Assembly: GCA_036939755.1 (NCBI GenBank)
Contig: JALLAZ010000019.1
Span: forward strand, 1-33,060
DNA from: Stephanodiscus triporus
Lineage: Eukaryota; Bacillariophyta; Thalassiosirophyceae; Thalassiosirales; Thalassiosiraceae
Length of the DNA stretch: 33,060 bases
Reading direction: 5' to 3'
The notes below the pieces were generated by a model, which saw nothing but the letters and a program-made list of their open reading frames with translations, had not been told where the DNA came from and ran no database searches. The position numbers and the translations under genes are program-made. Below are positions 5,065-33,060 of this stretch, piece after piece. Numbering within the stretch: the first letter of the stretch is position 1; each line of letters starts with the position of its first letter.

Positions 5065-8000
5065 ATGTTCGGGGGCAATTCCAAAAAGGCATCCTCTACC
5101 GCCGCTGTCGTCGGCGTCTCCACCGCCCCCGGATCCGAGGACGAAGCCGCCGCGACTGGCACTGCCACGAACGCGAACAGGCAACGGACACAGCATCGCT
5201 CCCTAATAACGATCGTTCATGCCAAGACTCTCGCCCTCGCCAGGACGGTACAAAAGTATCCGCGGAAGCATCGCGACCTGTCCTCCAATGGAGTACTGGC
5301 GGATGCCGTGGAGGCGCTCGAGGATTTCAAGGACGTGGAATGGCCGCCCCGTAGGGCGGAGATGGAGGTGGTCCTGGAACGGGTCCCCAGTTGGTTGGGC
5401 GGTGGGGGGAGCCGCAGTAGTAACAGCAGTAATAGTGGAGATGTCGTTGATATTCATGAGGAACAAGAAGTTTCTGACGCGGAGAAGCAGGATAGGGCCA
5501 TTTCTGAGCTGGAGAGAGATTTAGATCAGAGGCTCAGTTTGAGTGACAATGACAAAAGTGCTGCTGTTGATGAAGACGGGAAGGAGGATGTCGCTTCTTG
5601 CATCGTGGATGCCGCTTTGGAGAATGAGTTGGAAGATGCCAACGTCAATGATGAAGAGGAAGCCGAAGAGTTACACCAAGAGGTGTTGAATGCCATAGGG
5701 AGGGGGAAAGGAAATGATCAGAGAAGCGAGAGTCAATTGGGGAAGGAGGATGAGGTTTCTGTCCGAGAAAACGGCGTGTCATCTTTTTCAGTGGAGGATG
5801 AGGACCAAGAAAACAAAGACGATTTGAAGAAAGTTGCGGCCATCAAACGATTCGAACAAATCGTTGATAAAGATAAACCGATGGAAACGCCCATTTCGCC
5901 CGTTACAGGAAACACAAGCCTCAGATTCAACAATAACTCGACATCACCCAGGGTCGATGCGGCGGCGATGGAACCAATGCACCCCGCAGTGATCACCACC
6001 CTCCACGCATTGTGCATGGTCATTTCCTCCGAATCAAAAACGCTCAAAATGGCCGAAACGGCTTTGGAATGTATTTCAATCTTGACTAACGGCAGATATG
6101 TCAGTGGTGTCGCGGGCGGTAGAGTGAAGTTGGAAGTACAACGAAAGATAAGTGATCCCGTCATTGCCCAGCAGCCGGGTCAGCAATCTGCGCCGGGACA
6201 TGATGGTCGTGATGGCGGGTTATCGTTCCTGGGCTACGTCGTTGAGTCGATAACGCGTGCGTCGGACTTATCCTCCGAAGCGGTTCAAGGAGCCATGGCC
6301 AAAGCACTTTTGGCAATCATGACCTGTCCTAAGTGCGGAGTGCATGAAGCGGCGATGCTCCAGGCTGTGCGGAGTACATTTCACGTGTATTTGGTCGGGA
6401 AGTCTCCGAGTGGGAAGGAATTGGCCAGGAGGACATTAGTGGATATGTTGAAGTGTGTTTTCATGAGGATGGAGGCATATGATATTGTTAACAAGGGCAG
6501 CGGCAGCAGTCACGGCCTTGTCGAGGATGTGAAGAAAGAAGTGACTTTGAGAGGAATTCAAATTTCTCAGAGTACAGCGGCAACCAACATATCTTCCGAA
6601 GAGACGGATGCAGCTTCCACCTCTGTTGGGATCTTCGCATCGCAATACCATACCGACAGCTACCTCCTCTTTCGGGCGTTGTGCAAGCTCAGTTCCAAAA
6701 CCCTTCCAGGAGATGAGAATGTTGTCTCGATCACTAATCCCATCTCTGGAGTCGGATCCTCCATGGGTGGATCCTTCTTCTCGTCCACCCCCATAGTCGA
6801 TCCTCTCGCACTCAATTCCAAGATTTTGAGTTTGGAGTTGATTCTTGCTGTATTTGAACATTGTGGCGAAGCATTTAGGAATGGTGAAAAGTTTATCTAT
6901 GCAGTGCAGAGCTATTTGTGCGTGAGCTTGTTGAAGAATTGTATGAGTAATCAGACAGTTGTGGCTCATTTGTCATTGAAGATATTTCTGCTTTTGGTGA
7001 GTAGATTTAGTGTTTGTTACACCAACGGATAGTTTGGTTTCGTCCTGAGCCCTCATCGGCTTTCTTACAGACTTTTTTGATCGTTACATTATACCGTATA
7101 GGTTCGAAAATTCAAGACCCACCTCAAAGCTGAAATAGAAGTATTCGTGGCAAATATTTTCCTACGAGTACTCGAATCACCAAATTCACCCTTTGAACAG
7201 AAGGTATTGGTACTCGAAGCTTTGAGGGCACTATGCGCTGATCCGCAAATGCTGACACAATTATTCTTGAATTACGATTGCGACTTTGATGCAGTCAATT
7301 TGTACAAGGATATTGTCCATCACGTCACTAGGATTAGTGCCAAAGCATGCGCATCTAAATCGACGGCTGGCAGCGTTAACACAACGAAGAAGATTGTCGA
7401 TCAGGAGTTGGATTTGAGTCGAGCAGGGCTGGAAGTATTGGTGGTTATTTTGCGTAGCTTCTTGAAGTCGTTGGGTTTACCGGGGGGTGATGACGTCTTT
7501 GATGAATCGGGTGGTTCTTCGTCGATGTCACTGTTGAGGCAAAGTCTCAAGATTGATATTGGAGATGGTGTCACTATTTCTACGAACGACACTGAAAGTC
7601 AAAAATCGTCGAATAAGAGAAGTGATTTATCCCTCGATAACATTGACAGCTCCGAGAGTCGATTGGATGGCAGCAACTCTGGGGATGTCGCTGGTAAGAT
7701 TGTCGATGCCTTTGATAAAAAACGTACGAAAGAACAAAATTTCGAGATCGGCCGTGTCAAGTTCAAGCTTTCATTTAAAGACGGACTGAAATTCTTTATT
7801 GAGAATGGTGTTGTCGAGCTTGACGCCCAGGACATGGCACGCTTCCTTTATGAAAATAGTGAAGAGTTAGACAAGACACAGATTGGGGAAGTTTTGGGGA
7901 AGGAGATAGACGCAGCGTTTGTCAAGGGAGAGGATGTGGATGCCGACAAGGGGGGAAGTGGATTTTATTTACGAGTTCTGTATCATTACGTGGATAAGAT

Positions 8001-11000
8001 GGAGTTCACTGGCCTAATGTTTGACGATGCTATTAGGATTTTTTTATCGGGATTTCGTTTGCCAGGAGAAGCCCAAAAGGTGAGCACCGCTGCTCGATTG
8101 ACGACGGCGATCTTTGTTTTGATTCGACTCATCGTTAGCACTTCATTTCTCTATGCAGATTGATAGAATCATGGAGAAGTTTGCAGAGCGCTTCACTAGT
8201 CAAAACGAATCAGTATTCCCTTCACCAGACACCGCGTTTATCTTGGGATTCTCGGTTATAATGCTCAACACAGATCTTCACAACCCAAGCATCAAACCCG
8301 AAAGGCGGATGACAATGGATTCTTTTATTCGCAATAATAAAGGAATCGCTGATGGGGGTGATCTGCCGGAGGAGTTCTTGGCAGGTATATTTAATCGAAT
8401 CAAGGAAAAGCCTTTCTCGTTGAAGGAAGACGACGAGGCCCGTGAAAAGGTTTCTAAAGAGAGTACACGGGATTTGTTTGACTCTTTGTTTCTATTTGAA
8501 GGACCAGCAATATTTGGATCAAGTGCCGAGGAGAAGAGGCGTGAAAAGTTCCGCAAAGAACGAGAGGAAATGATGTCGGCATCCGAGCAGCTCTTCAAAA
8601 AACGTCCTGATAAGAATTATTCTAGAAAGCTCTCTCATGAAGCCTCGAGTCAGCTGACTGATTCGGTGTCTCCGGCGGATGTTGTTAAGCCTATGTTCGA
8701 TGTGACATGGGGCCCCCTGATTGGAACCCTTTCACAGGTTTTGGAAGCATCATCAAATGAAACAAGTATCGCCCTCTGTCTCAGCGGTTTTGTCTACTCC
8801 ATCAGAATATCATCCCATAGCGACATGTCTTTGGCTCGAAATACATTTGTGAATTCTCTTGCTAAATTTACAACGCTGGGTTCTATTAAAGAAATGAAGA
8901 GTAAGAACATCGAGTGCATTCGAACACTCCTGAGTATTGCTATTATTGACGGGGAATACCTCGGTGAAAGTTGGTCTCCAATTTTGCAGTGCATCTCCCA
9001 GCTTGGAAGACTCCACTTGTTTGCTTCGGGTCTTGATTCGCAGGACCAATTCCTCCAATCGAATGCGCATCAAACGACGAAAATTTCCGAGGCAGCTCGT
9101 GGGATGGAGGAAAGTAATGGAAAAGCGGTACTAGCTGCCATCAACGAAGTTCTCATAGACAAGGTATTCTCTTCGTCAGTCACGCTTTCTGCTCGTGGAG
9201 TTGTTAGCTTTATCGAGCAATTGATTGATGTATCCGAAGCAGAGATATCTGGTGATACAAAGAAGGGGATCAGTGGAGTAAGCTCGTCCTCGACCACAAC
9301 TGGGGGTCAAGGGGGTTCCGTTCATGGAATCGACGGCCCTCGCGTATTTTCTCTGCAGCGTCTTGTCGAAGTTGCTGACTATAATATGGCTATCCGTCCT
9401 CGATTGACCTGGTCCCAAATATGGGAAAAGATGGGTAATCACTTTGCGAAAGTCGGATGCAATAAGAACGCAATGGTTAGCATGTTCGCCATCGACGCCC
9501 TTCGTCAGCTGAGCCTGAAGTTTTTGGAAAAGCCCGAACTGACAGACTTCAACTTCCAGCGTCTTTTTCTCAAGCCTTTCCTTCTGATTATGAAAAACCC
9601 TGGCTCAAGAGAAGATGTTCGAGAGTTGGTATTACGCTGTGTTGATAATATTATTCGCATGTTGGCTCACAACCTTCGCAGTGGGTGGAAGATATTTTTT
9701 TCCATATTAATGCTTTCCTCGAGTGACCCCAGTGTCAAAATAAATACGTTGGGGTTGGCAATTCTTCAGCGGCTGCTTGACGATCATCTCGACGACCTTT
9801 GTCCATCGGGCATGGAAGGGCCGGTGACGGATGAGGGATTAGACCAACCGGAGGCAACTCTTTCTTCCTCGGAACGAAGTATGAGAAATGCCAACGCGGA
9901 TGACTTTGTTTGGCTTTGTCGTGCGTCTTTATCCTTCGTACAGATCGAGGAAAGTGAAACCCCTCTCCCTATCGGGCTGTCTATGAGAGCACTCTGTCAC
10001 ACAGCATGTTACGCCGATTTGATTGCGGGTAAGAAAGTTTTGCCTCCCGTTTCAGGATGTCAACATGGCGATCCTATGGCGCCGGGATTTACTTATGATG
10101 GACTAACAAATGAGGAATCACTTGAAATGGCCATCTGGAGACCTCTTTTTGATGGATTAGCATCTGGAATGTGTTCTCCAGCATCAAGTGTCAGTGGAGG
10201 TGTTGGCTGTTTGGTCCAACGTGGAAGTGCCATGGCTCTACGGGCTATTCTTTTAAGGCACGGGAAATTATTTTCAGTTTCACAGTGGTCGGCAATTCTA
10301 AGCGATGTAATACTGCCTGCTGTGCAGATTGGTGCTCAGAGCGATTCTTCCCCTGTAACCAAGATACTCTCTGAGTCGCCTTTAGTATCAAGTCTAGATT
10401 TTGTAGGCGAGCCCCTTTTGCTACCACCCGATTGTGACGACGAAGGCCTTGAGAAATTTGCAGCCATGACACAGTCTGATGAAAGCTCACCCAGCAGACC
10501 TCTTGGAGTTGCAGAACTCCTAGTGGAAGCTAGCTTTGCTGATTTGAGACATGGTGGAGATGGCAACTTGAGCAATGCTTACAGCCTCAAGACGAAAGAT
10601 GCAGACAAGAAGTTTGTTCATCTACAACCATTTCCTTACAGCTGGATAGCCACAACTGCGCCTATCGCACTAGGCATGCTGAGTGATATTATCTATTCAA
10701 TGCTCCTCGACTTAGGAAAAGAAGCAAGGGAAGTGCTGTGGCCCATTGTAACTCGTCAACTAGGACTGTGGTCTGTTGGTGCACTTCCCCAAAAGATCGA
10801 TGAACACAAAGATGACAAGATGCTCGTTGCTGTTGAAGAGTGGCAACCATGCGAAGCACTTGTGCGAATTTCTTGCAAGGAATGGAGTAGAGTTTTCTGC
10901 CGAGTGCTCGACGCGGCTCCTAAGCTGAGCAAATCAGAAGCACAAGCCTGGCTGAGAGTTTTGAGCGCAAGTCTAAGCGCGACAATGGTTTCCAACATTG

Positions 11001-11854
11001 AGCTAGAGGAGAAAGTTAGAGAGGATATAGTCAAAGCAAAGTTAGCAGCGCTTTCCCATAAGTTGAACAGTGACACAGACTGTAATAGAAGTGCCCCAAA
11101 TGTCAATTATCTTGGCATGCTCCCCATGCTCAAGACAAGGTGCATTGCCTCGCACTGTCTGCAGCAATACCTGTCGATGTATTTGGAGAGATTTGCTGTA
11201 CTCGCAGCAGAGGACGAAATCTCATGTCTGCTTGACGTCCTTAACCAATCTCGGTTTGCATCAAGCGTTGCCCGGAAAGATGAAGATTTGGCGCATGCTT
11301 TTCAAGAGGCGTTCATCAACCAATTCGGTGAGAGTGGTGGTGTGGAAGAAATTGAGGCAGCCTTGCAGGGCACCAGTGGCAGGTCAGGGCACCGTGGAAG
11401 TAGCCAAATATTTTTCTTAACGCAAGAGGCGAGCGCTACAAAAGCATTGATCATTCTTTTATCTTTATTGTACTGCGGGCGAGCTTCTGGTAAAGACGCA
11501 TGGGACGCTGAAGCATATTCCGAGCCTCTCTTGATGGAAAGTGTCATGGACGTGCTAAATGAGTTCTTAACGTCCGAAGAAAAAGATGGACTTTCGATCG
11601 ATCCGAATGTATGGAGAAGCGCGAGTGAAAGTGGAGGTCAAGTGGCCGTCTACTGCACATCATTTGCTGGTGTCGTTGTGATCATCCTCGAGATGATTCT
11701 TAAGTTGAAGGTGGAAAAATTCAGTCGTCAGAAGCAGTCTCTTTTTCCGGTTCTCTGCTCACTTGTTCGTGTCCAAAGTGGCGAGATCCGCCATTTGGTG
11801 TCGAATATATTCCGCCAACAAATCGGGCCCATGATTCTAACAGATTCGAAGTGA
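5065..11854 (+). CDS. SEC7: Large ARF guanine-nucleotide exchange factor, Sec7/BIG type
   Basis: Three exons (5065..6996, 7102..8079, 8159..11854) join in phase 0 to give 2201 residues. Introns are 105 and 79 bp, both with GTGAG donors. The family loads GTP on ARF GTPases at the trans-Golgi and endosomes to start vesicle coat assembly. Order of parts: acidic low-complexity N-terminus (to about 300); DCB-like helical region (about 307-480); HUS region, with KAEIEVF and the HUS-box-like LFLNYDCDFDAVNLY (N701); Sec7 domain about 858-1055; long helical HDS-type C-terminus. The Sec7 signature FRLPGEAQK-IDRIMEKF is split exactly by intron 2, and E967 is the expected catalytic glutamate finger. The second motif, FSVIMLNTDLHN, begins at F1001. 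BIG proteins are usually 1700-1850 residues; the excess is in the acidic N-terminus and linkers. F1001 stands where brefeldin-A-sensitive exchange factors usually have Tyr. Start is the first Met after the CAA-rich leader. Confidence 0.95.
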
Positions 11855-12091: not shown

Positions 12092-14681
12092 CTAGAAACA
12101 CCCTTCAGGTGGACATTCAGGGCCACAAGCGGTATGCTCTTTTTCGAGGGGACGCAGGAAAAGAAAGAAAAAGAAAGCAGGTGGAATGAATTTAGATATC
12201 AATTTCAACACGAGGAACCAGCAAACTCTCCAATCTGGAGACCACTTACCCATTAACATGGGCACCAACCAGTTGTCTCCTTCTTTGGCATCGTAGCTGT
12301 CCATATTACAGTTTCCTGCTCTAACATACCTGTGTGTCAAGTTAGAGCAATAGTATGGATAGTATATAGAGCATGACATTCTGACTATCCTCACCTGCAA
12401 ACCTGTATCCGGCATATGGAACCGTCACTAAAACTCTTGACAGCGTCCCCACATCCCAAATAACGAGATGCCCTCCATAGCGCCTGTGTTAAGTGGGCAT
12501 TATTAGGATATGGCCAGGTTTCCTCGTTTTCTACCCATCGCTTGAGAATCTGAATCACGAAAGAGGGTTATTTGTGAGAACCACGTCGTATCAGAAAAAT
12601 AAGGAACGAAATAAAACCTTCCTCACATTATCCGCGGGATAGATCTTCCCCATTCCTCCAGCCGTCGATCCTCTGTTTTTTGCAAGATTCTCGCCCTGCT
12701 CGACACCCGGCTCGTGCTTTATTCCCTCGATTTCGCAATCATTAAGTAGCTCTGTAGCCCAAGACAGAGCGTCATTGGCCAGCTTCGCAGACCACATAAG
12801 GGGTACATAAGTCTCGCCATAGCGTTGATGCCAAGATTGCCTTCGAGTGTTATGAGCCACGAGCCATTCCATGTCGCGATCACTCATTGTCGATTCGGGG
12901 TCATTTCCTGCAATTATGTCATAACTCAGTTCAAACCTGTATGAGCCGCCGCGGATTAATTCTCGACCATCTAGATAAATGGCGAACATTCCGTCACTTC
13001 CGTTGCTACAGCAGAATCCATCTCCAAAAGAATCCTTAAGAGTGAAACGATATTTACCAGGGTCAAGATCAAGTTCGATGAAATCTTCCTCGAATGGATT
13101 GTATGTATTCTCCTCCACGGACGCGATCAGTCTGATCTGTCTATCTGTCGAGTCGACGGAATAGAGCGTCCACGACGTTTCTTCAGCGTGTTTGTCCGTC
13201 CGAATTTCAATGGAAAGACGAGACTTGGAGTCCACGGCATCGATTTTGCCTTCTGCAATTGATGATTCATCCTGTGCGCTGGCTAGCGGCGGACGTGTCG
13301 GTTGATCGGTGGGCTGGCGTATTTCGCAATATTTGGCGGTACTGCCACACCAGCCATAGTGGCTACAGCAATCCCCTTCGATTGGGCAGATCCCATTGCC
13401 TCGATCTCCATTTCCACATGTCGCAATGGGAGTATTCGCCAACTCGGATGGCGCGGTCGATGTCGACTCGGTTGGCATTGGTGCTGATGCTGTCGGCACA
13501 GTTGATGTCGATCCGACGGTCTCTGGAGGCATTGTGGGGATAATCGTCGGGTCTGCACTTCCAGGCGAGGGCGATGATGATGTCTGACCGATGGTGGGCG
13601 TGTGGCTAGCGGATGTCGGAGATATCGTCGAGCCGTCATTCACGACCCACGCGACTGAGCTGGGGTCCGACACTCCAGTTGGGCCGTACGACGGCGGTGA
13701 TGTTGTTGCAATCCACTCCACGGCATCTGCGTCCAAATCTTCGGCCGCTGCCGGACTCGCCCTGAAGACCGTGAGTTGCAAGGCAATGCCGACGAGAGCG
13801 ATGACGGCCACGATCAGTCCGAAAGCCGCGAACAAGAGTTTCCTTTTCCTGCCCGGCGCACAGACGACTGATTTGCGACCATTTTCGTCATAGACGATGG
13901 AATCGCTGGCACGGTGACTGTTGCGATAGAAGTTATCCTTGGAGACATAGTGGTCATCCCAGGACAAAGTTCGCGTCCTTGCCATAGTAGGGAGTTCGCG
14001 AACGATGCCGGAAGCGCCAACAGACCGAACAGTTCGTTCGACGCCAAGAGCAGGCGCTTGATCCTCACAATTTCCCGCATTCGCCACGGCCTCGGAATTG
14101 TCGAAGAATTCCGAAAGAGAGAGCGACACATTACCATACACAGATTCCCCATTCATCGTCGCGCTTTCCGAACCGCAGTCGAGTTCCTTGCCATCGCGTG
14201 CGCCTCTGTTTGCGGAAGGAACCGCGAGCCCGACGGCGTGGTCGGCTACGGCAGACGACGTATCGTCCGCGCCGATCCCGAACCGCCTGGTGCGAGCGTT
14301 GTCGCGCCCGAGCCTTCTGGCGAGGGACGATACCCTGGCCGCGCCACGCCTATTTTTGTCATCCGTCGCCCCCGAAGTCTCCAACGACATTGGGACCGGG
14401 GCGAGCTCGACGACGTCGTCGACCCCGGCGGATGCGGCATCGCAGGCGCGGTCCGCGCCGCAGTTGAACATCAGCGAGGCACCCGATTCGACGGCCGCGA
14501 CCCAGTCGAATCCATCGCAGTTGCCGGTCATCCCACGCCTGCTGCGGGACGAGATCTCCGCGAAGTCGTCGTCGACGTCGTCGTCGACGTCGTCGTCGTG
14601 GGCATCCTCCTCGTAGCCGTATACACGTTGGAGGACCCGCCGCTGCCGACGGTCCTCTGCGTGGCTGTTCATCATTGTCAT
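12092..14681 (-). CDS. Membrane-anchored chitin-binding (hevein-type) CAP/SCP domain protein
   Basis: Four exons, complement of 12627..14681, 12395..12549, 12250..12329 and 12092..12138, give 778 residues. Introns are 77, 65 and 111 bp. Residues 1-280 are acidic and Ser/Asp-rich with no signal peptide. One hydrophobic helix follows at 281-306 (KLLFAAFGLIVAVIALVGIA), preceded by RKRK, so a type II topology with the C-terminus outside is likely. A Ser/Thr/Pro-rich stalk comes next (about 320-420). Then a hevein-like chitin-binding module at 422-452 (CGNGDRGNGIC...DCCSHYGWCG). Then a beta-rich module with GDGFCCSNGSDG (about 480-590). The CAP domain begins at 604. All four tetrad residues appear: His in IKHEPG, Glu in QGENLA, Glu in VENEE and His in NAHLTQALW. 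The QVCRYVRAGNCN and CGPECPPEGC ends support the last two splices. A role at the chitin-containing cell surface is inference. The N-terminal start is the first Met and is less sure than the rest. Confidence 0.9.
12139..12249 (-). other. Stop-free, 3n-length last intron of the CAP gene
   Basis: The donor is G|GTAAGT and the acceptor AAAAAG, after a pyrimidine-rich tract. The 111 bases contain no in-frame stop, so an unspliced transcript stays open and adds 37 residues including a PPAFFFFLFL hydrophobic run before the Cys-rich end. Family likeness of the spliced end (a short link from LVPML to CGPEC) favours removal. Confidence 0.7.
14565..14599 (-). repeat. GTC/GAC triplet run coding Asp-rich DDDV units
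   Basis: Interrupted GTC triplets encode the DDDVDDDVDDDF stretch near the N-terminus of the CAP protein. The interruption by GTCGAC repeats every 12 bp. Confidence 0.75.
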
Positions 14682-18849: not shown

Positions 18850-21800
18850 TTATATCTTATGCCTTTTACGTCTCTTTAGCTGGTCGACCAGACGCTGGTG
18901 ACCGAGAACTGTGGCAACAAGAGCATCATCATCACCTATACCATGCGTTCGATATATGGATAAAGCTTTGTTCCAACTCTTCAACGCACCCGACAAGTCA
19001 CCCTTGTTGCCTCGAACAACTCCGATGTTAACAACCACTTGCGCGACTGCCATGCTGTTGCTTCCAAAGTTTGATGATCGAATTCTCAGGCAATCGGAGT
19101 ATGCCTTCATTGCAGCACCATAGTCTCTTCTCTTTTCAAAGACGATTCCCATACCGAATAGTGTTTCGGCAACATCTTCATGATTGTTCCCCAAATGTAA
19201 CATACGAATACGCAAAGTCTCGTCAAATAGGATCATTGCCTTATCAACAGATCCAGCTCGCCCTTTCAAATTTGCAAGACGATTGAGAATCTTCGCAACA
19301 AATAGTGAATCGCGACCGAACAACAACTTGTATAATCGCATCGCCCGTCTATACTGTTTGAGTGCATTCACTTCGTTCCCCAATTTGTCCATGGCAGTAG
19401 CGAGACGGAAAAGTGTTTCTGCTAGATCTGAGTACAGGTCTACTTTTTTAGATGACTTTATGTCGTTATCAGGAGGATCAGCTCCAACATGAGATTGATA
19501 TATTGCAGTTGCTGCTTCTAGCTCAGTAACGAGGCAAATGAAAAGGGAAAGCTCGCGTTAACCAGACTGTTCTCTCAACAAAGAAATTCAATGAACCGAA
19601 GTTGCTCATGCGAAACGACTTACCTAGCTCGTTCACCGCCTGCATAAGCTCGTTAGTTTTCTCGTAGATCTCACCAATGCAAGAGTGACACTTTGCTATT
19701 TTCAAATCATTCGGATTATCCAAATGACGTTGATATTCTTTCAGAGCATCGGCGAAAAGCTGCATTGACCTTTGCGTATCCGATGTCCTTTGCAGCGCAG
19801 TTCCAAGGTCAAACAATGCATCCGCGACATGAATTTTTGAAACTGCATCTGTACCACGGGTTGCTTCTCTGATCTTAAGGCAGTCAGAAAAGACAGTTAC
19901 CGCAAGGTCGAAATTTGACTTCTTAGAATAAACATGACCTAGTCTCGCAAGATTCTCCGCTATTTCAGAGTCCATTTTATCGAGATTCTTTTGTCGTCCT
20001 GAGAGTGAGTCTTGAAGGCACTGAGCTGCCAGATCATACTCTCCTTTTCGCTCTGAGAGCAATAACGAAGATTCATAGATCAATAGAGTAAATTGTGCGA
20101 CAATTATTGATTACACACGGAAAGTCACTTACCACTGATGCATCCAAGATAAAATATTGAGTTTGCGACATGTATAGTCTGAGGACCAAGCTGTTTGTAA
20201 ATATCACGAGCTCTTTCAAAACAACGACTGGCTTCGTCGTAATCATTCCACATGAACAAAATTTTCCCCTTGCAATACTGTGAGTCGCCTGTTTTAACAT
20301 GATCTTCTCCAAGCAATACCTGTCGGAGGGTCAACGCTTCTTTTACACAGGAGTAGCCGCGCTCAAATTCTCTGACCTTGACAAAGTGATCTGCCATTCT
20401 TTGCAATACGTCTGCTATTGTTTGATGCTTCGTTCCAAAAATTTGTCTGTACGTGGAGAGCGCAGAAGAATACGATGAAGCCGCATTTGCGTCATCCCCC
20501 ACCTCTGAATACAAATCTCCCATTTGTGAAAGTATATCACCACTTTCTTTGGAAGGTGTATGCCCATCAATCGACTTTCTAATATCAAGACATTCTGAAA
20601 AACATGCGAGGGCTTTACGATAATGCTCACCGGAGCGCAAACTTTCGCCTTTTCCAGCGAGTGATGACGCGACACGATCGTTATTCTTTCCATATACCTC
20701 AACATAGATTTTCAACGCCTCGTCAAAGCAGAAAACAGATTTGTTGACATCCCCCATCGAACCGTGAACGACTCCCAATGAATGAAAAGTATGAGCCAAT
20801 TGAGAGTCTGCTTTTGCAAACTTTGACTTTTTGATGCGCAACGAACCCTCCAGGTACTTTAAAGCCTTCACATTGTCGTTTCGCGACATGTACACGCACC
20901 CTAGATTGTACATTGATTCTGCAACTAAATGGTCTTCACCCAATTGAATCGTTCGTATTCGAACGGATTCCTTGAAAGCTCTCTCAGCATCATCCAACAA
21001 TCCTTCTATAAAGTGGAGTTGTCCAAGTTCTTGCATGACAACGGCTGACTTTACGTCACCGCCACCTGTTGTTTGCTTTCGTACAAAGAGTGACTTTTCG
21101 TAGTAGCGTTTCGCATCATCATATCTCAGGAGAAGTTTGCTTGATTCGGCGATTTGTTCGTAAGTGTCTGCAACGTCAAGATGTTCTTCACCTAATTTTT
21201 GCTTGGAAATACGAAGAGCCTTCATAAAACAGCGTATTGCTTTATCGGGAGATCCTTTTGCATTCAATGAAACACCTAAGTTGAACAGCGTATTTGCTAC
21301 CGAGAGATGCGAGTCCCCGTGCTCTTCTTTGTAAATGCGCAATACTTCCACATATGCCTCAATGGCAAGGCAATGATCGTTCTTTTCACCATGCAAGTCT
21401 CCCTTCTTGTGCAAAAGCCTTGCGTATTTCGTATGCCGTGTTCCAAAAAGTTCCGAGACAGCTTCTAATGCGCCATCAAGGCAATTCATCAGATGGGCGT
21501 GATCCTTTACCGAATCGCTACAGTGACGAATTTTTATCTTCAATGCGTCTTCAAATGATTTTAGAGCCTCCTTTGAATTTTTCTTCCGCATCCATATGAT
21601 ACCTAGGTGCCGATGAATTTCTGCTAGATCATCATCAGCGTCATTGTCGCATTCCATGGCTTTCATGCGCAATGCCTCATCTAGACAGACAAACGCATTT
21701 TCATTTTCATTCATGTTCACCAGACAAATACCAAGACTTTGAAGATACATTTCTGATCTTTCGATCCGAACGGCATGTTCGAAGCATTTCAGGGCCTCTC

Positions 21801-24800
21801 CTTCGTCGCAGAGCTCTTGGTGGACAACACCGAGAGAGTGCCAGCAAAATGCAACATCAGCGTGATCATCCCCGAGCTCTTGCCGTAGTGATTCGAGTGC
21901 CTCTGCGTGGTAAACTTGGGCCTTGTCGAACTCTTTCATTTCGAAATATGCTATTCCAATGTTATTTAGAATCTCGGCTACGGCTACCTTGGTTGAGCCT
22001 CTGGCTTTATGAATCTGCAGCGATCTAAGGTATGCATCAATCGCCACGGAAAAGTGTTTCTGCTCAGTACTCAACACACCCAAACCGAACAATACGTCGG
22101 CAGTTTCAATGCTATCTGGATCTGCTTGCTCCGCAATAGCTAACGATTGTTCGAACTTTTTCTGTGCCGAGTCAAGATCTCCCACCTCACGCAGTAGGTT
22201 TCCGATGTAAAAAAGGAGTTCGCCAATGCTTGTGTGTTCTCTGCCGAGGAGTTGACGTCTTATATTAAGACATTGCTCAAAGCTATCAAGGGCCTGGCGA
22301 AATTTACCAGACTGCTGCTGAAGCTGACCAACTTGTATGAGAGCATCGGCATCGTCCATGCGTGCATGCATACCACCCAGCCGATCATCCCTTGCCTTTA
22401 CAGCATCAGTTAAAAAATAAAGCGCGTCACTTATGTTTCCAAGCTTTTGGTGGGTTCTCCCCAAACATAACAGGGTCTCTTCCAGATCAGGGTGGCTCTC
22501 TACTAAATGCAACTTTCTTACTCGTAATGCTTCTGTCAATAATTCAAGAGCCTCTTCTAAACTTTGTCGGCTGGTCGTTGAGTCGCTCATTTTTTCAAGT
22601 ACGAAACCGGTATAGTGGAGGTTTTCAGCAATTGTCAAGTGGTCGGAGCCGAACTTCGCCTGAAAAATGACATTGGAAAATCGAAAACACTCAAGAGCTT
22701 CTCTGAATTTGTCAATATTCATTAGAACTGACCCGTAAAACATTGCATTTTCTGCACAGCTGAGTAATTTTTTTTCACTGGTGTCAGTTTTCCGTTCTTG
22801 CAATTTTGCCGTCAGATCGTTTGATTGAGACACAGAGAGGCCCAACTGTTGGGCTGCATAGACACCTGCGTTGATGAACATTTTTTGGGCTTTAAACGGC
22901 TCGCCTCTCGATCGATAGATTACCCCACATTCCCGCTGCAACCAGGGCTTATCCTGCGAAATACACTTACGGAAGCATTGTATTGAATCTTCGAACTCTC
23001 TCTTGTTCATGTGGATGAGCCCGATGCATTCTAAAGTGCTCGCAGTGATGGCACTATTGTCCCCTACCGTCATCTTCTGTATTCTAAGTGCCTCTTTACA
23101 GTGCTTCATTGCGGTACTCCATGCACCTCTCATTTGATGTATAACGGCCAAGTTGTAAGTGGTAGATGCAACGTTGAGATCCCATGCCCCAAGATTTTTC
23201 TTCCGGATCGTCAAAGCTCTTTCAAAGTGCGAAATCGCCTCATCCAATTCACATTTCTTGACAAGTGTCAAGGCTAGGCAATGGCAGGTGTCCGCCACCT
23301 CTTCATTCTCGTCTTCAAAAAGCATTCGTAACAAAGAAAGAGACCTTGACAAACACTCAAAACTCTTCTCGAAATCAGAAAGGTCTCGATAACAGTTCCC
23401 AAGATTGTGAAGTGAGTGTGCGACACTAAGGTGTTCGGTGCCATATAGTTGCGACTGTATCATAATCGCCTCACGGTACATCAGAACCGCATCTTATTCA
23501 TGATCATGCATCAAAATCTTTGTCAGTAAACGATAGTGAATAAAAATAGCCAAGTACATTGGGGCCTTACCTTCAAGCTTATTGACATGGACATAACAGT
23601 TTGCAAGTTTGTAACATAGTTCGGCTCGAGCGTCAGTGATCGGGCCAGCGTCTTCAACATCCAGGTCAAGAAGACGCGCATAGCATTCCGCCAAAATTTC
23701 TTGTTTAGCTACGGTCTGAGCGTTGTTGATATCCCATTCAAATATTGCTACAGCTTCTTGATACCTTTCGAGCGAAATTTCATGCATATCTTTGTCAAAA
23801 TAGTAGTCAGCCAAATATTTGTGGGCGACACCTAGCTCCCAAGAATCGCTAGAGAGACCGCCTGACTCAATAACCTCTCTATAAGACTAGAAATAAAAGA
23901 CGATATTTGAGCACTTATTATCGAAAACTGCGCTATTTATAAGATTCAATCAAATACTCACCTCAATTGCGTGACGTTCGTCGCCAGCTTTGGCATATGC
24001 TGCGGCTAAGTCAATCACCGACAAGGCATACTCTTCGTCGGTGCGGCCGTGGAGATGTTTTTTTCTCTGTGCCGCATCAAAAAAATACCCAACCGCCTCG
24101 CGAAACCGCGTCAACGTAAACATAGAGCTACCAATAAAATGCAACAGGATGCAGATATCTCCATCATCGTCATCCAGAGACGTCCTCTTGATTGCAAGTG
24201 CTCTTTCGAACGAATGTATGGCATCTTCGTGGCACTCCATTTTCTGCTGTACAATTCCTATGCTTTCGTAGGTGTTTGCACAGTCAATATGCAAGTTTCC
24301 TAGCAACGTTGTTCTGATTTCTAGACACTCTTTAAAATTCTTCAGTGATTCAGGGTATTGATTTTTTTCACAGAAACATATCCCTAGTCGAAAAAGCGCT
24401 TGGGCGACGTCAGGGTGATTTTCTCTGTGCGATGATACCATGATGTGCCGAGCCTCTTCTAGATGTCCAATTGCAGTTTCGAAATTCCCCAACTCTTGGT
24501 ATGAGCTTCCAAGAAATAGTTGCGCTTTCGATACCTCTTCATCACCACATCCTAATTTTTGCAAGACGCGAAGATTTTCAACAAAACAATCAATTGCCTC
24601 TTCAAACTCATCTCTCAAGTAGTGTGCCTGCCCCAGACCATACAAAGTTCCTGCCACATCTTGATGTTCTGTTCCAAAGCATTCGACCCTTAGGGTTAGG
24701 GCGTCTCTCAGATGACAGAGAGCGGTTTCAGTTTCTTCTAATTCCATGCAGATGATACCGAGATAATGCTGAGATGCAGCGGTTTCGAAGTGACGAGCTC

Positions 24801-27800
24801 CTAAAGAAGCCGATTTTGTGTGAAATGCATCAGTCATAAAATCCAATGCAGTTTTGAAATTTTTCTGCCTTAAACAAACTGACGCAGCATTGTGTAGGCT
24901 GCATGCCATTGTGACATTCTTCTCAAAGTCACCGTTGTTCTTGAAAATGTCGATACTATGCAGATAAAATTCAAGAGCGCCTTCGTCGTCGGAAAGCGCT
25001 TCTTTAATTATACCTAGTTTGTGCATGCACGTGGCAATGTCTAGTTGGTTGACCTCAACATTAATTTGGAATATCCGAAGGCCCCGTTCACAGTATTTCT
25101 CAGCGCTGGTGTACAGCTTTTGGTCAATAAAAAGCTGGCCCATCTGAAAAGATAGTGTTATCGTCACAGGAGAAAGCGAGCAAAGGATTGAGCAAAAGCG
25201 AAGCAGAGCTATACGCTGAACAGGCGAGAATAGCAATGAAACAACTTACGTTGACAAGTGCCCTACCAGTCTCAACACTGTCACAGCCTAACCTTTCAGT
25301 CTTAATGCGAAGCGCCTCGGCGGAAAATGCCATGGCACGGTCCAACTCTTCCATTGCCGATAACACCGCCCCGATGTTATTTTTGGTATTTGCGATCTTC
25401 ATTTGGTCTCCAAGCTCTATCCGGATAGTCAAGCTCTGGTCATAACAATCCAAAGCTCGTTCAAACTCGGACACATTCCGCAGCAAATTGCCCATAGAGT
25501 TCAGAGCATCTGAGAGCTCAAGATCTTCCCCTTGGACTGCCTTAAGAATCTGCACCGACTCTTGAAAACAAGAGAGAGCATTCACATGATCACCCATACG
25601 TTCGTACGCTGCGCCCATTTGGCGTAATGTCTTCCCTTGGGCAGCTTCATCAAAAACAATCCCGTCGCCATTATTTTCTCTCGACCTCAGGACAGAGAGG
25701 GCGCGTGAGAGCCATTTCAATGCACTTTCATAGTCGGCGAGATTTGTCATGGCGACGCCCATCAAGTACATGGTGGAATGAAGTTCTTTGTTGTCTTCGC
25801 CCAAAGCCAACTTTGTTATTTCATAACTCTCACGCAGACACTCAGATGACTTCTCAGGACTACCCTGTTCAAGATGAATGTGTCCCATGTTGAACAGGAG
25901 ATCAGCAATACGAAGCTCATCTTCTTTTGTATCGCGCTGGGTCTCGAGAACTTCAGCGAAACACTCCATAGCTTCATCGTATCGTGCAAACGTTGCGTAC
26001 AGGTTCCCGAGGCGGTGAAGTACGTCTCCTATTTCATCGGACAGCTCAGCCTTCAAAGTCCTATCTCGTTCGATACCTAGCACCTGTCGCAAAGTAGCCA
26101 ACATCTCTGAGTAATACTGCAGTAGTCGCTTGTTCGGTTCATTATCTGACTTCTTAGACACCGCTGCCACTCTTTGCCGCTCATAAAACTCCTCCAAAAA
26201 TGAGACACAAGACCGATAGTGCTCCAATACTTCGACAGTATCCCCGTCCAAGCGCTGCAGAATTTTGGCAATATCCCGATGGAGAAGCCCCTTCTTTTCC
26301 TTCAGTGCCAATCCCTCGCAATATTCATAAATTCGCATAGCTTTCTCGCAGCACTGCATCGCCTTATCAAAATTTGACATCATTACAAATGATTTGCCCA
26401 TGCCAGTCAGCGTATCAGCGACATCGATGCTATTTTTGCCAAAGTGGGCGAAGTATGTTCGCAGGGACTTTGCGTAGCAATAAACCGATTTCTCGTAGTC
26501 TTGATCCTCGTGAAGAATTTTTGCCAGAGCAGAGTTTATTAGGGCATTGTTCAAGCTGTACTTTTTGGTGCACTGAGAGCGAATTCGCAACGCCTCTTCA
26601 TACAAACTGAATGAGTCCTCAACATTGCCTGTAACTTTGTCAATGTTTGCCATGTGGTACAAAACTCGCGCTACCCAAAGATTGATTGCCTTTAACTCCA
26701 TCGAAAGCTTTTCGTCATTGACATCTTTCTCGTTCATGCGTGACAATCTTCGCTTCCCTTCGACCTGGAAAAGCTGCATAGCATCGATGTAGTAAACTTT
26801 CGCTTCGTTGAGCTTAGATCGCGTTTCTTCGAGTCTACCAAGATAAAATATGCAATGTGCTTCCATAAGGACCGAAACCCCGTGTTCATCGGATGACTTG
26901 GGTTCATTGCTGCGATTGGCGAATGTATTGGTAAACGCCCTTCGTATTTCAAGTGCCGATGTCAAAGCTTTAAACGCCTTAGTCGTCTCGGAATGCATTT
27001 TATCGGCATCTGCCATCGCACGATAAAGATGAGCTATCCCAAGACTTTGATATGTGTCTGATATGCTTGTGTGATTTTGATCTAATAAAAGCTTGCGAAT
27101 ATCGAGGCTTTCTGACAGGAAATTTATGGCGTCTTCCACAAACTTATGAATTTCAACATCGTCAAATGAATAAGCTTCAGCAATCGAAACTTTTCTCAGA
27201 CACAAATCACCTAGATGCTGCAGGATGAAGGCCATCTCAAGGTCGTTTTGACTCCCGATTTCTCTTCTCCGTATTGACAAGGATTCTTTAAACGACTTGT
27301 ACGCAACCTCGTCGTCATTATCGCTGTTCTCTTCTTCCTTTGTTATGGCGAGACAAAGATTCCTTGTCGTGTGCAAAACGGCTAGACTTTGCAATGATTC
27401 GGCATAGGTCAAATGATGCTTCCCGAAAAGGACTTGTGATATTCGCATAGATTCTGAATAACAGCCAATAGCATCTATCTTGGCGGACCTACTTTCGCTC
27501 GACGAAGAAGACGCAGCAAGAGCTCTGTATGAGTTGCCGCAGTTATGATTAATATTCATAACAATGACATGGTCTTTGGTTTCAAGCCGGGCCACCGTAA
27601 GCTTTTCTGCTTCCTTATAGGAGCTGATGGCATCCTTAAATTGACCAGCGCTAGCTTGGAGATTTCCAATTCGGAACATGATATCTTCCTTTGTCCAGAT
27701 TGATTCGCTGTCTGAGCCCTGATCTATGTCATGACGTTTCCAGCTCACATCTTCTCCTCCTGATGCTTCGTTACCCTTTACTGATTCTCTGTTCTCAATG

Positions 27801-30800
27801 AGCAGAAGAATGGCCGAGTAACAGTCCATATCATTCCTATTCAATTTTGATTCTTCAAAACATTCCAGAGCACTTTCTGCATCCAAACTCGATATGAAGC
27901 CAACCGTTGTTGCAACGAATTCTCTTATTCCGATCGCTCGTTCAAAACAATTGAGGCTGTAGCGATCAGAGCCACTTTCCAAACTAATATTCCCAGAACG
28001 TTCATAGACATCACGTAGAACCATCGACGTAGATATCACTGGAATGTCTTCAATGAAACAACGAGAAGTGGATGGAAACAATTGCAAAGTTCTCCAGTTT
28101 GACAAGCCCGCCCTTATTTCATGGCTTTCATTCAAGACGTGAGCTGTGTCGTCAAAACATGTCATAGCTTTATCAGTTCTGCCTTGACTTTCATAACACT
28201 GGCCAAGACGGTGCAGCGCACAGGCTAATCCATTCTTGAGAACCATCTCGAGCTTTTTGCGTTGCCATTTATGAAGCGACGTGATCTTCCTTGCAACGTC
28301 TTGATCACGTTGATCAGAATCATCATTCAATATGCGTCCGCTTGAAAAAATGGGGTGACTAGCTGTTGAATTGAATGCCTTCACTGCCTCTTTGTAATTG
28401 GAAGCTGCCGATTCAACTCTTCCGAGCTCACTATCAATAAACCCGACTCTTAAGTTGAGGAATGCAATATCAAGAAGGAGCACAGCTTGTTCAAGAGTTT
28501 CATTTTCTCCATAGCCAGTTTCAGCGGAAAACCTTGCTGGATTGAGAAGAGCTTGCGCCTTTAGCAGAACTTTTTGAGCTTCGTCAAAATCATGGCTTCG
28601 CGTGTAAGTCACTCCAAGAACAAATAAAAGCTGAATCAATTCGATCCCGGCGCTGTCCGTAATTGAAGAAATGTCCAATAAATCTATCACAGTAAAGATA
28701 TTTTCTGGAACGTGAAATACTCCCCCCTCTGCTTCGAGAAAGCCACAGTTGAAATTGAGTAGGTTAGAAAATTGCCCTATTGCTTCATCATCATTCAATT
28801 TCCGTGAAAAGAGTAGACCACGGAGAAGAACAGATTCCCAACAGTATGAAAGAGCTGCTTTGTAAGAGCGCGACCGAAATTCTACCCGTCCTGCTACAAA
28901 TAAATCCTTCGCCAACGCCTCCATCTGCGCAAGTGGTGCATCTGTCGTAATTCGAAAGGAGATGTCTACGCTGTCGTCTATGAGCCGTGAGGAGCCCACC
29001 CCACTATTGTCTGCAATCAAGAATACTCCGCCATCAGGCTTGTCCTTATTCATCGGAGCGGTATAACAAATCCTTCTCCTTGAAAGGATTGACTTCATAA
29101 TACATTCTTTTCCTATTCGTTCTGCATTTAATTGCCGAGTCAATGAAAAGCCCTCGTCTTTTTTGTCCTTGCTCTCGGAAAATAACAACAAATGACACTG
29201 CCAATTAATAGCTTGGGATACTCTGACAGCTTCATTGAGATGTATCCTACCCAATTGAGACAGTACATCCCCAGCAAAAACGTCAGTGGCAGAGGGTTCT
29301 AGATCATCAATTTTGTTTATGATTTCTTGGAAACATGCAACAGAAGCATCGTATTGTCCAAGCTCAGCGAGCGAATTTCCCAAGCACTGTAAAGTGACAA
29401 ACATCTGTTGAGTTTCTTGACATGTGTTGGTTGCTTGATTGCGTTGACGCGAGGGCTGCCCAATTCGCTCTTTTTCCTTTATTCGTTTCAATATGGCCAG
29501 GCACTGTCTGAAACAGCTTGTAGCCTCCTTCCACTGACCGAGCTCGACGTGAATAGCACCCATGTTGTGAAGTGCATTGCTCACCATTTTGTGAAACCGT
29601 CCGACGTGTCTGATGTATAGTGACAATGACTCTCGGTATGCACCAAGAGATTTTTCATATTCAGAAAGCTTGTCATGGCAGTAGCCAAGACAATTGAGGG
29701 TGTCAGCTAGATGTAGCTCCACCGAGATATTTGCCTCCCTTATATCATGCAGCTCACTGTTTGGCATATCCCGCGCACTGGTGGTATCGCGACGGGTGTT
29801 GCTAGCTTCCCTCTCTTGTTCAAGTTCTCTCATGTTGTTTTTTTGCAGTCTTTCGTTTTCGAATTTCGTTGACCCGTTCAGTAAAGCGCAATTCTCTGCT
29901 TTTGTTAGAATGAAAATAGCGGCCTTGTATGCATCCAACGCGTTCTTGTATGATGACATTTCTAAGGATAAGGCTGCATTGACCTCATTACCTCTATCAT
30001 CTCCTACAACCAAGAATCCGTCTCCTTTTTGACACAATTTTTCGCCATCTCTTTGTCGGCGACCAAGACACACGCCGAGGTGATGAAGAGCACGTCCAAT
30101 CTCTAAGCAATTTGCTACGATGTTGGAATAGTTATGCATAGAAATGTAGTCCTCTCCCTCACTTTTGATACTGCCAGGCATGTTCGAGGAGTCGTCAGCG
30201 TTGTCAACTTTCTTGGCTTCGATGCAATGATACCCGGTATGAATCAGCGTGGTTATAAGATGGGTATGAAGTGCTGATATAATTAGAGTAGCTAAACTTT
30301 CATAGTTTTCCTCCTTGCTGTGCAGCCCTGAGCAATCTTCGTCGACATCGTCGCCACATATTTTGCGATTGTCGTTGCTGCCTTGAAAATAAAGATACCC
30401 TTGCCAGTTGGAAAGATGCGTAATTGTTGCATCGTAAGGCCCCTGCATTTCAAAACGTTTCATGAGGTATGACTCGTTAAAAAGTAGATCTGATAAGTCT
30501 TTATACGTGACTTCTTGGGACCCATCGATGCCCTTCACAGTACTGGATTTATAAGTACCAGACACGAGAAATTGCTGGGAAATGAGTGCTCGAAATAGGA
30601 AGGTCGGGGTATATCGCAGGGAGTATAACTGCGCCATAGGCTGTACACTTCGAGATAGAGCAAGCCGCGTATTTTGTGAGAACACTGAAACCGATTGATT
30701 GTCATCGTGGTCTCGCTCTCCTGATGTAGTTCTCTCCGTAAGTGTTGGAATATCCGAAAGCAGCACTTTACACATCACAGTATTTGCCCAGAGAAGATCA

Positions 30801-33010
30801 ATTGACTTTCCATCATCAGAAGATTTACTCAGGACCATCCTAACAATATCGTGACGCATCCGAACTTCATGCTCCTTTATCTCTAAAACATCGGGATCAT
30901 TGTTTTCTACCTCACCCAGCTCTTCGCCGGCATCAAGCATCTCCCCGTAAAGAAAATTCTCCAACTCTGCTTGAGCATCGTTAGACTTGGCCACACCTTT
31001 TCTCAGGCGCTTTCGGCGTTTCTTAGTATCACTTCCTATTTTCATCGTTGTCTTCATAGTAATAACTTGGTACCGTCGAAAGATGTTTAATACATCATCA
31101 ACAAGAATGGAAGTGACAAGATCAGCTTTTTTTTTTACGCCGATAGTAGAGGTGTCATTATTGTCGGTGTCAGCCATTTTTATCACTTCCAAGAAGAGTG
31201 CACGTGCCGTTGACAAAGGAACGTAATGATACACTTTTGGGGGTATAATATTAGCAGAGGACTTTCGAGATTGAATACTATCTTCCTCTCCTTCTTTACA
31301 GCTGCGATCGATGTCTCCAACTTTATGATGAAAGGCCTTGGCATAAGCCTCGATACACATAAGGAGTACAGATCTGAATATGAGAACACCTTTCTGCTCT
31401 GCGTCATAATTAAGTAGGTATAACTCCTCCTGATCCCTGACGCTGTGCTCATCAAGATCACAAACGCTGTTTGATTTCTTCTCCAGTAAACTATAATGTG
31501 AAATGTTCTCGCCGTCAGCATTGATATTATTCATTCCATCTCTGCTGTACTGCGAATAATGAGCGCGTGCAACCGACCATAGCCGCTCTTCCCAATCATC
31601 AACGTCCTCGTCTTCAACGTCAATAGTGGAAGTGTCACTATGATCGTCTAGGTGAGAATTCGGTTGACTTTCCCCACCGCCAACGACGGTGCCAGAAGTA
31701 GAGCGTTCTTGATTGTCGTCTGGAAACTCTTCGTTCAGGTCGGCGTCTTCGCCGACCAGGACTGCAGCGCCCGTCAATCGTCGTTTTGGGACCATCTTTT
31801 CGGAATAAACTTTTGTTGTATCATGTTGAAACCATCCCTCGTCATTGAGTTCTTTTATCCACCATGCCGTGGACGATGGGTCATCGCTGCCATCACCCGT
31901 GTCATCTCCTCTTAATAATGAGGTCGACGTGCGCTTCCTCTTCAAAACAGATGCGTCGCGATCCCCCTCATCGCAGTCCTCGGCATCCTCGCCCGTGACA
32001 TCGATACCAAATCCAAGACTCTCTAAGTTAGAGAGAGTTTCACTAAAATCAAACAGCATCCGCACTTCCTTTTTCGAATGATCGTCGCCATCAACCGCAG
32101 GCGTCATTGTTCCTCTCCCGTCATTGAACAAGAACGACCCCGAGGACGCATCGTCTTCATCGTCCGAGGAGGGAACGTCATCCCCCCCCCCTCTCATCCT
32201 ACTTCCCCTATCGACCGACGATGACGACGCTGGAGCGCTCCTCCTACGAGTCCTGCCACCGTCGTCATACCCTAATAACGAGCCGATGCTGCCATCGCTG
32301 ATTTCGTGCTGATCCTGATTGTAGTCGTTCCTGACTGCCGCCGCGGAGCGATACCTCTTCGGGAGGCGAAACGACGAATCCTTCCATGATGTTGACGACG
32401 TCGTCGTCATCGTCATCCCCGACGACTGTAGCGACGACCCTGACTCATGAGAAATCATCGAATCTCTGCTCGCCACGCTCAATGATCGGATCACTCGACG
32501 GGGGGAGTACGACGACGATTCCGAGAATTTCGACAAGTTGTCGTCTTCGTAGTTGTCGTCGTCGTTGTCGTCGTCGTCGTAATCCAATCCACTATTTCCA
32601 CCACCTCCACCTCGAATCCTTCTTCCGCCGTTCTTCATCCCGCGACGACCTTGATGACGATCGGGCAACGTTGAGAATGCAGATTTGCCGATGCTCCATC
32701 CTCCTCCTCCTGATCTTGAACCTGTTTTCCTCCCACCACTTCTAGTCGAAACATCAAGAAGTCCACCATAGCTCGATTCATCGTCGGATATTGACCTACT
32801 CCTTCTTTGTTCCTGCTGCGGTTGATGCTGTGCCTGTTGATGTTGCGGTTGTTGCCGTGGTTGTTGTTGCTGCTGACGCCTGGAATGAGAGGACGTGGAT
32901 CGTCCACTACCGGCCATGTAATCTTGCGGCGGTTGTTGCTGCTCCCGCCGCCTGGAATGAGAGGAGACGGATTGTCCGCCACGGACCGCGTAATCGTCAT
33001 GGTCATCGTA

Positions 33011-33060
<50 letters not shown>
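18850..33060 (-). CDS. Giant TPR-repeat protein, kinesin-light-chain-like repeats (5' end outside window)
   Basis: Six exons join with matching phases: complement of 25250..>33060, 23962..25143, 23571..23886, 20133..23492, 19624..20052 and 18850..19517. Introns are 106, 75, 78, 80 and 106 bp with GTAAGT, GTGAGT or GTAAGG donors. From the Met at 32917 this gives 4540 residues, but the frame is open to the window edge (47 more codons), so the true start is probably outside. The first 450 or so residues are low-complexity (Gln, Ser, Asp and Gly-rich). About 450-1050 is a partly helical region I do not recognise. From about 1060 to the end are degenerate 42-residue TPRs of the pattern HxxVAxTLxxLGxxxxxxGxxxxAxxxxxxALxIxxxxxG. 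I count about 25 in the first exon, 10 in the second, two or three in the third and about 34 in the last three, roughly 70 in all. The C-terminus is basic (KRRKRHKI). Such arrays form superhelical protein-binding scaffolds. No enzyme domain is visible, so the partner and role are unknown. Confidence 0.9.
32182..32191 (-). repeat. Ten-base G run in the TPR coding sequence
   Basis: A ten-C run on the plus strand encodes the Gly triplet in MRGGGDD. The frame is open on both sides with the length given, so it is consistent here, but it is a spot for slippage or assembly error. Confidence 0.7.
32877..33020 (-). repeat. 72-bp coding repeat at the 5' end of the TPR gene
   Basis: CGCCTGGAATGAGAGGA at 32877 recurs at 32949, a period of 72 bp or 24 codons. 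On the minus strand both copies encode SxSSHSRR, preceded by DYxxxGxxS and, downstream, followed by Gln/Pro-rich sequence. One copy lies upstream of the first Met in the window. Confidence 0.85.
33011..33060 (-). repeat. GAC triplet run (poly-Asp) at the window edge
   Basis: Sixteen perfect GTC triplets plus two bases run to the last base. In the TPR frame they read as at least 16 Asp codons. The tract continues beyond the window. Confidence 0.9.

Follow-up and report, generated by a model that had tools for sequence, protein, structure and literature searches.

The minus strand of a 33,060-nucleotide contig of the diatom Stephanodiscus triporus carries six open segments of 2,644, 431, 130, 1,122, 195 and 235 codons, successive or overlapping, that form a single reading frame for a giant TPR protein once five short GT-AG introns (75-106 bp) are removed (Table 1). 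Joined, the exons amount to 13,623 coding bases, whose only stop is the terminal one. Counted from the ATG at 32917, the protein has 4,540 residues; its predicted mass is 510 kDa. Upstream of this ATG the frame is open for a further 47 codons, as far as 33058 at the edge of the contig, which brings the length to 4,587 residues, and the true start therefore probably lies beyond the contig. The stretch of DNA analysed (the window) is the entire contig, and thus the 5' end of the gene is missing. In eleven relatives (P0123, P0125 and P0129-P0137), 134-455 residues precede the position of our ATG as judged from the first aligned pair; 40 do so in P0127 and 4 in the partial P0124. By the same measure, the starts of P0121, P0122, P0126 and P0128 fall inside the joined protein. 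P0123, P0129 and P0137 have a 'MDPP' start, located upstream of the aligned part. Subtraction of the 47 open codons from the relatives' upstream lengths suggests that about 90-410 residues are missing at the N terminus.

The window holds other coding regions. On the plus strand, three successive open frames (5065-11854) contain DCB, HUS, Sec7, HDS and BIG2_C domains and are probably one spliced gene for a BIG-type ARF exchange factor. Directly downstream of the giant gene and on the same minus strand, 16557-18551 matches the Fumble family (E 1.6e-101), which we take to be pantothenate kinase. A GC-rich frame of 696 codons (minus strand, 12594-14681) has a chitin-recognition match barely above its cut-off (28.9 vs 27.8 bits). 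Elsewhere in the same genome, a second large TPR locus extends over several open frames (L021, G000:C204:13281-19930) and includes a stretch with 51% identity over 1,034 columns to metagenome protein P0027. A third long TPR locus (L022, G000:C312:1979-6902) consists of four collinear pieces with 34-57% identity to P0021 (1,658 aa). The genome also has a silicon transporter match (PF03842, E 8.9e-228); one of 14 control genomes matched, below the cut-off. This match, like the 58% identity of the giant protein to one from Thalassiosira exigua, suits a diatom close to Thalassiosira.

Table 1. Features of the giant TPR gene, in positions of the window.
Feature	Position	Strand	Details
Low-complexity, less conserved N-terminal stretch, Asp/Ser/Arg/Gln-rich	32018..33058	-	truncated by contig end
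Conserved N-terminal region, mostly helical	29738..31780	-	about residues 380-1060
TPR array, 67 profile-defined repeats	18943..29707 (including introns)	-	residues 1071-4510
Exon 1, from first in-window ATG	25250..32917	-	2,556 codons
Intron 1	25144..25249	-	106 bp, phase 0, GTAAGT...TTTTCAG
Exon 2, TPR array	23962..25143	-	394 codons; TPR_12 E 1.3e-57
Intron 2	23887..23961	-	75 bp, phase 0, GTGAGT...TTTCTAG
Exon 3	23571..23886	-	316 bases; alone without Pfam match, yet spanned by homologues
Intron 3	23493..23570	-	78 bp, phase 1, GTAAGG...AATAAG; in-frame TAA inside
Exon 4, TPR array	20133..23492	-	3,360 bases; 54-helix model, mean pLDDT 89.4
Intron 4	20053..20132	-	80 bp, phase 1, GTAAGT...CTCTCAG
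Exon 5, TPR array	19624..20052	-	429 bases
Intron 5	19518..19623	-	106 bp, phase 1, GTAAGT...GAGCTAG
Exon 6, C-terminal TPRs	18850..19517	-	668 bases including stop 18850-18852

The earlier note had joined the six segments into a single gene for a protein of more than 4580 residues, on the strength of good splice signals and of joins that each continue a TPR. All five joins are present with GT-AG ends and with the frame kept, the ones it named (VN/MGQLF, IE/SYREV, KLE/DAVLMY, CIS/ERKGE and NEL/EAATA) all exist, and the length agrees when the frame is followed to the contig edge. Every junction cuts within a TPR, and the repeats restored by joining score 18.0-41.1 bits, as the note's reading would have them do. 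There are two candidate AG acceptors for intron 4 and eight for intron 5, and the choice among them rests on keeping the frame and on agreement with relatives. The acceptor of intron 3 (AATAAG) is atypical and lacks a pyrimidine tract; we dismissed the doubt that this raises, as P0007-P0009 and longer homologues support the join.

Relatives that cross the junctions support one spliced gene. Of 173 proteins, 49 align to the joined protein at E <= 1e-40, and we took one alignment from each, classing it at a junction as read-through (at most two gap columns), gapped (more) or ending (within 20 residues). Read-through, gapped and ending alignments numbered 16, 1 and 4 at junction 1; 15, 1 and 1 at junction 2; 20, 1 and 1 at junction 3; 12, 2 and 19 at junction 4; and 8, 4 and 0 at junction 5. 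Relatives at 24-30% identity may match merely as TPRs, so the set with at least 37% identity is safer; in that set, junctions 1 to 5 are read through by 11, 9, 13, 3 and 4 proteins. Seven uninterrupted proteins of 3,858-4,431 aa (P0127-P0133) span junctions 1-3, and a gene model of 4,473 aa from Thalassiosira exigua (P0124, marked partial) spans all five. P0127 and P0129, read as unspliced calls, would themselves lack introns 1-3. P0001 is gapped at junction 3 by 26 extra residues that resemble translated intron 3. Within the same genome, the relative P0018 has its best match at the giant TPR locus (474.6 bits; 63.4 for the best match elsewhere). Exon 1 matched itself and 18 short TPR stretches of 21-31% identity, all in residues 2059-2556 (18 of the 30 initial candidates were scored), and no second copy of exon 1 was among these 19 listed matches. 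Both results are consistent with one orthologous gene.

The 19 alignments that stop within 20 residues of junction 4 are what could be expected if two or more adjacent TPR genes merely appeared to be one, say with one of them ending at 'intron' 4. We consider this highly improbable. P0005 (75% identity), P0006 (73%) and the T. exigua model all stay in frame through junction 4 (the first two span junction 5 as well), and P0013 (63% identity) goes on past junction 4 after an insertion that resembles a translated intron. The gap itself is 80 bp long, has GT-AG ends and lies inside a TPR. In those relatives ending at junction 4 whose sequence was inspected, GK or GE follows the last matched residue, as from a translated GGTAAG or GGTGAG donor, and we therefore infer that most of the 19 would be unspliced gene calls that extend into a retained intron 4. 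An assembly chimera or a decaying pseudogene is extremely improbable: the assembly is a draft of 1,324 contigs, but the same collinear order recurs in separate homologues, the frame is open and all introns are GT-AG. The few near relatives that extend into exon 6 share a mean identity of 88% with it over residues 4401-4500.

The repeat content was defined with an iterated 34-position profile, which found 70 non-overlapping TPR sites in the joined protein; 200 shuffles gave 8.65 on average and never more than 16. The commonest spacing was 42 residues (30 of the 69 intervals in this first census). We dropped three sites, at 292, 924 and 974 (3.0, 17.0 and 19.3 bits), all of which precede the regular array. 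The final census is 67 TPRs, close to the roughly 70 proposed earlier, and a profile rebuilt from those 67 recovers 67, the first at residue 1071. The same profile, which favours the count of 67 because it was trained on this very protein, finds 63 repeats in P0124, 64 in P0138, 61 in P0139 and 58 in P0160. The repeats are mutually dissimilar (mean identity 19%, maximum 41%), which argues that the array is old and not freshly duplicated.

Pfam searches agree with a protein built of TPRs. TPR families match five of the six exons, with TPR_12 reaching E 4e-136 in exon 4; exon 3 (105 codons, searched without its neighbours) gave zero Pfam matches. The families that reach their cut-offs in the six exons are of TPR type only, if one counts SNAP (PF14938), which we take to be a TPR-like family and which exceeds its cut-off in exon 4 (35.9 vs 25 bits). 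Matches to SPO22, RNPP_C, HEAT_Nup120, ARM_TT21_4th, ANAPC3 and MIT fell below the Pfam cut-offs and were taken as cross-matches between helical repeats. Pfam detected no enzyme families in the six exons (E <= 0.001) or in two N-terminal parts (E <= 0.1), in keeping with the earlier description of a protein lacking an enzyme domain.

The array is predicted to fold as a TPR solenoid, in line with its 67 repeats and the TPR_12 match. For exon 4, the structure model shows 54 helices arranged as a solenoid; its mean pLDDT is 89.4 but its pTM only 0.53, which leaves the overall shape of the superhelix uncertain. The 54 helices may be read as 27 hairpins, compared with the 23 complete and two truncated repeats that the profile finds within exon 4, and the true number of repeats is therefore probably slightly greater than 67. 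In a Foldseek search, the best 50 rows for this model included IFT-A, Ski3, Ctr9 and OGT with query-length TM-scores of at most 0.28; an 8-repeat consensus TPR gave a target-length TM-score of 0.73. We take these matches to indicate just a predicted TPR superhelix.

A conserved region precedes the array. It contains consensus or invariant blocks such as DWEERLW and GPYNATITHLSNW, and it matches no Pfam family at E <= 0.1. The model of residues 350-1200 has a mean pLDDT of 58.9 and is weak over this region. In a fold search with that model, the leading matches lay on the TPR end, and model residues before about 416 were barely covered. We rejected a PRP1_N match on the low-complexity tip, which was below threshold (16.4 vs 22.4 bits).

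The length and order of the repeats are conserved among homologues. Taken singly, every one of the 67 repeats matches its collinear counterpart best in the T. exigua model, and so do 59 of 60 in P0129 and all 59 in P0130; in homologues with 26-27% identity, fewer than half do so (31 of 67 in P0138, 30 of 67 in P0139 and 26 of 61 in P0160). The alignments to these distant homologues are collinear from the N-terminal domain (in part) through the array, and each local alignment covers almost as many residues in one protein as in the other (4,092 vs 4,086 for P0138, 4,178 vs 4,144 for P0139 and 3,903 vs 3,872 for P0160). Both close homologues with a named organism, P0124 of T. exigua and P0137 of Cyclotella meneghiniana, are from diatoms, which is a partial test of the suggestion that the protein is lineage-specific. 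P0161 was excluded as a family member, as it aligned only from residue 1736 on at 24.5% identity. At 3,864 aa and with 55 profile repeats, P0161 is another giant TPR protein.

Several known proteins resemble parts of this one. The closest is T. exigua hypothetical protein ACHAWF_018004 (P0124), with 58% identity over residues 39-4537 and all five joins crossed; it is unnamed in function, partial, and a gene model rather than a transcript. Kinesin light chain has the same sequence type of TPR but a short array of roughly six repeats, whereas the diatom protein has 67; the heptad repeats at the N terminus of kinesin light chain bind kinesin heavy chain. Exon 4 exceeds the cut-off for TPR_NPHP3, the repeat region of nephrocystin-3 (196.8 vs 100 bits), and four further exons match but score below it. 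Nephrocystin-3 has a P-loop NTPase domain upstream of its TPRs; no such domain was found in the six exons (E <= 0.001) or the two N-terminal parts (E <= 0.1) of the in-window protein, which is also far longer. The same searches retrieved long TPR proteins of animals that are TTC28-like (P0144 and P0168). Unlike the giant protein, these have PF12770 (CHAT) in their precomputed Pfam lists, and CHAT is absent from all six in-window exons at E <= 0.001; 19% (P0144) and 17% (P0168, to P0138) of the query regions aligned. A 2020 review has the TPR protein family spanning 2 to 20 TPRs (PMC7279152). A TPR protein named in a T. pseudonana proteomics study has an NB-ARC domain, and for that reason we do not equate it with the giant protein (PMC5599023). 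TPR proteins as such are well known; such a length, a conserved N-terminal domain without a Pfam family and a nearly fixed span are undescribed in the open-licence papers searched. Those papers gave no description of the giant protein, which does not establish its absence from print.

We think it fairly likely that the giant TPR protein is a non-catalytic scaffold with many binding sites, a function that we infer. It would consist of a low-complexity N terminus, a conserved helical domain outside known families, and a solenoid of about 67-75 TPRs whose sequence type is that of kinesin light chain or nephrocystin-3; the searches revealed no catalytic domain. The many separate concave grooves of the superhelix could accommodate peptides or helical segments from several partners, which would be kept at fixed distances along it, and the N-terminal domain may anchor the scaffold.

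If the grooves bind partners, their residues might be expected to vary less than those of the outer face. We compared five concave with six outer positions per repeat, on 42 repeats and then on all 67, with position classes that follow general TPR rules rather than a complex. Over the whole array, concave positions averaged 0.96 bits of variability vs 1.20 for outer ones and were lower in 36 of 59 usable repeats (Wilcoxon p 0.013, or 0.035 with ten outer positions instead of six); these and the following p values are generous because the relatives are not independent. From residue 2297 on, the values were 0.86 vs 1.19 bits (28 of the 41 usable among 49 repeats, p 0.005). The 18 repeats that precede residue 2297 showed no stronger conservation in the groove than on the outer face (1.19 bits vs 1.21; lower in 8 of 18, p 0.73), and a binding groove is therefore unsupported there. 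The N-terminal third of the array is possibly structural.

The first 18 repeats would also suit a mechanical role, in which the solenoid is a long spring, ruler or spacer that joins two ends and whose grooves bind little. The nearly constant length of the array in homologues at 26-27% identity favours such a role, but the stronger conservation of the groove than of the outer face from residue 2297 on would be needless in a pure spacer, and we regard this alternative as unlikely. A transport adaptor, an enlarged analogue of kinesin light chain that links motor and cargo, is decidedly unlikely. Kinesin light chains 1 and 2 are among the best solved-structure sequence matches of exon 4, with kinesin light chain 1 at the top (E 6.7e-20 in the search with exon 4). 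However, this type of repeat is common to many unrelated TPR proteins, and the array is about ten times as long as that of kinesin light chain.

A bolder reading is that diatoms use the protein as a molecular ruler of fixed length, or as an assembly-line scaffold, in which about 70 TPRs would space many partners over tens of nanometres. Conservation of length while the sequence drifted to about 27% identity prompts this speculation, which we consider quite unlikely to be right as it stands.

One chain of about 67 TPRs, conserved as a whole along with its own N-terminal domain, would amount to a giant protein family not yet described, one that unspliced gene calling would split at its short introns. 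The protein is a concrete target for asking what use one cell has for a 510-kDa binding solenoid in which no enzyme domain is recognised.
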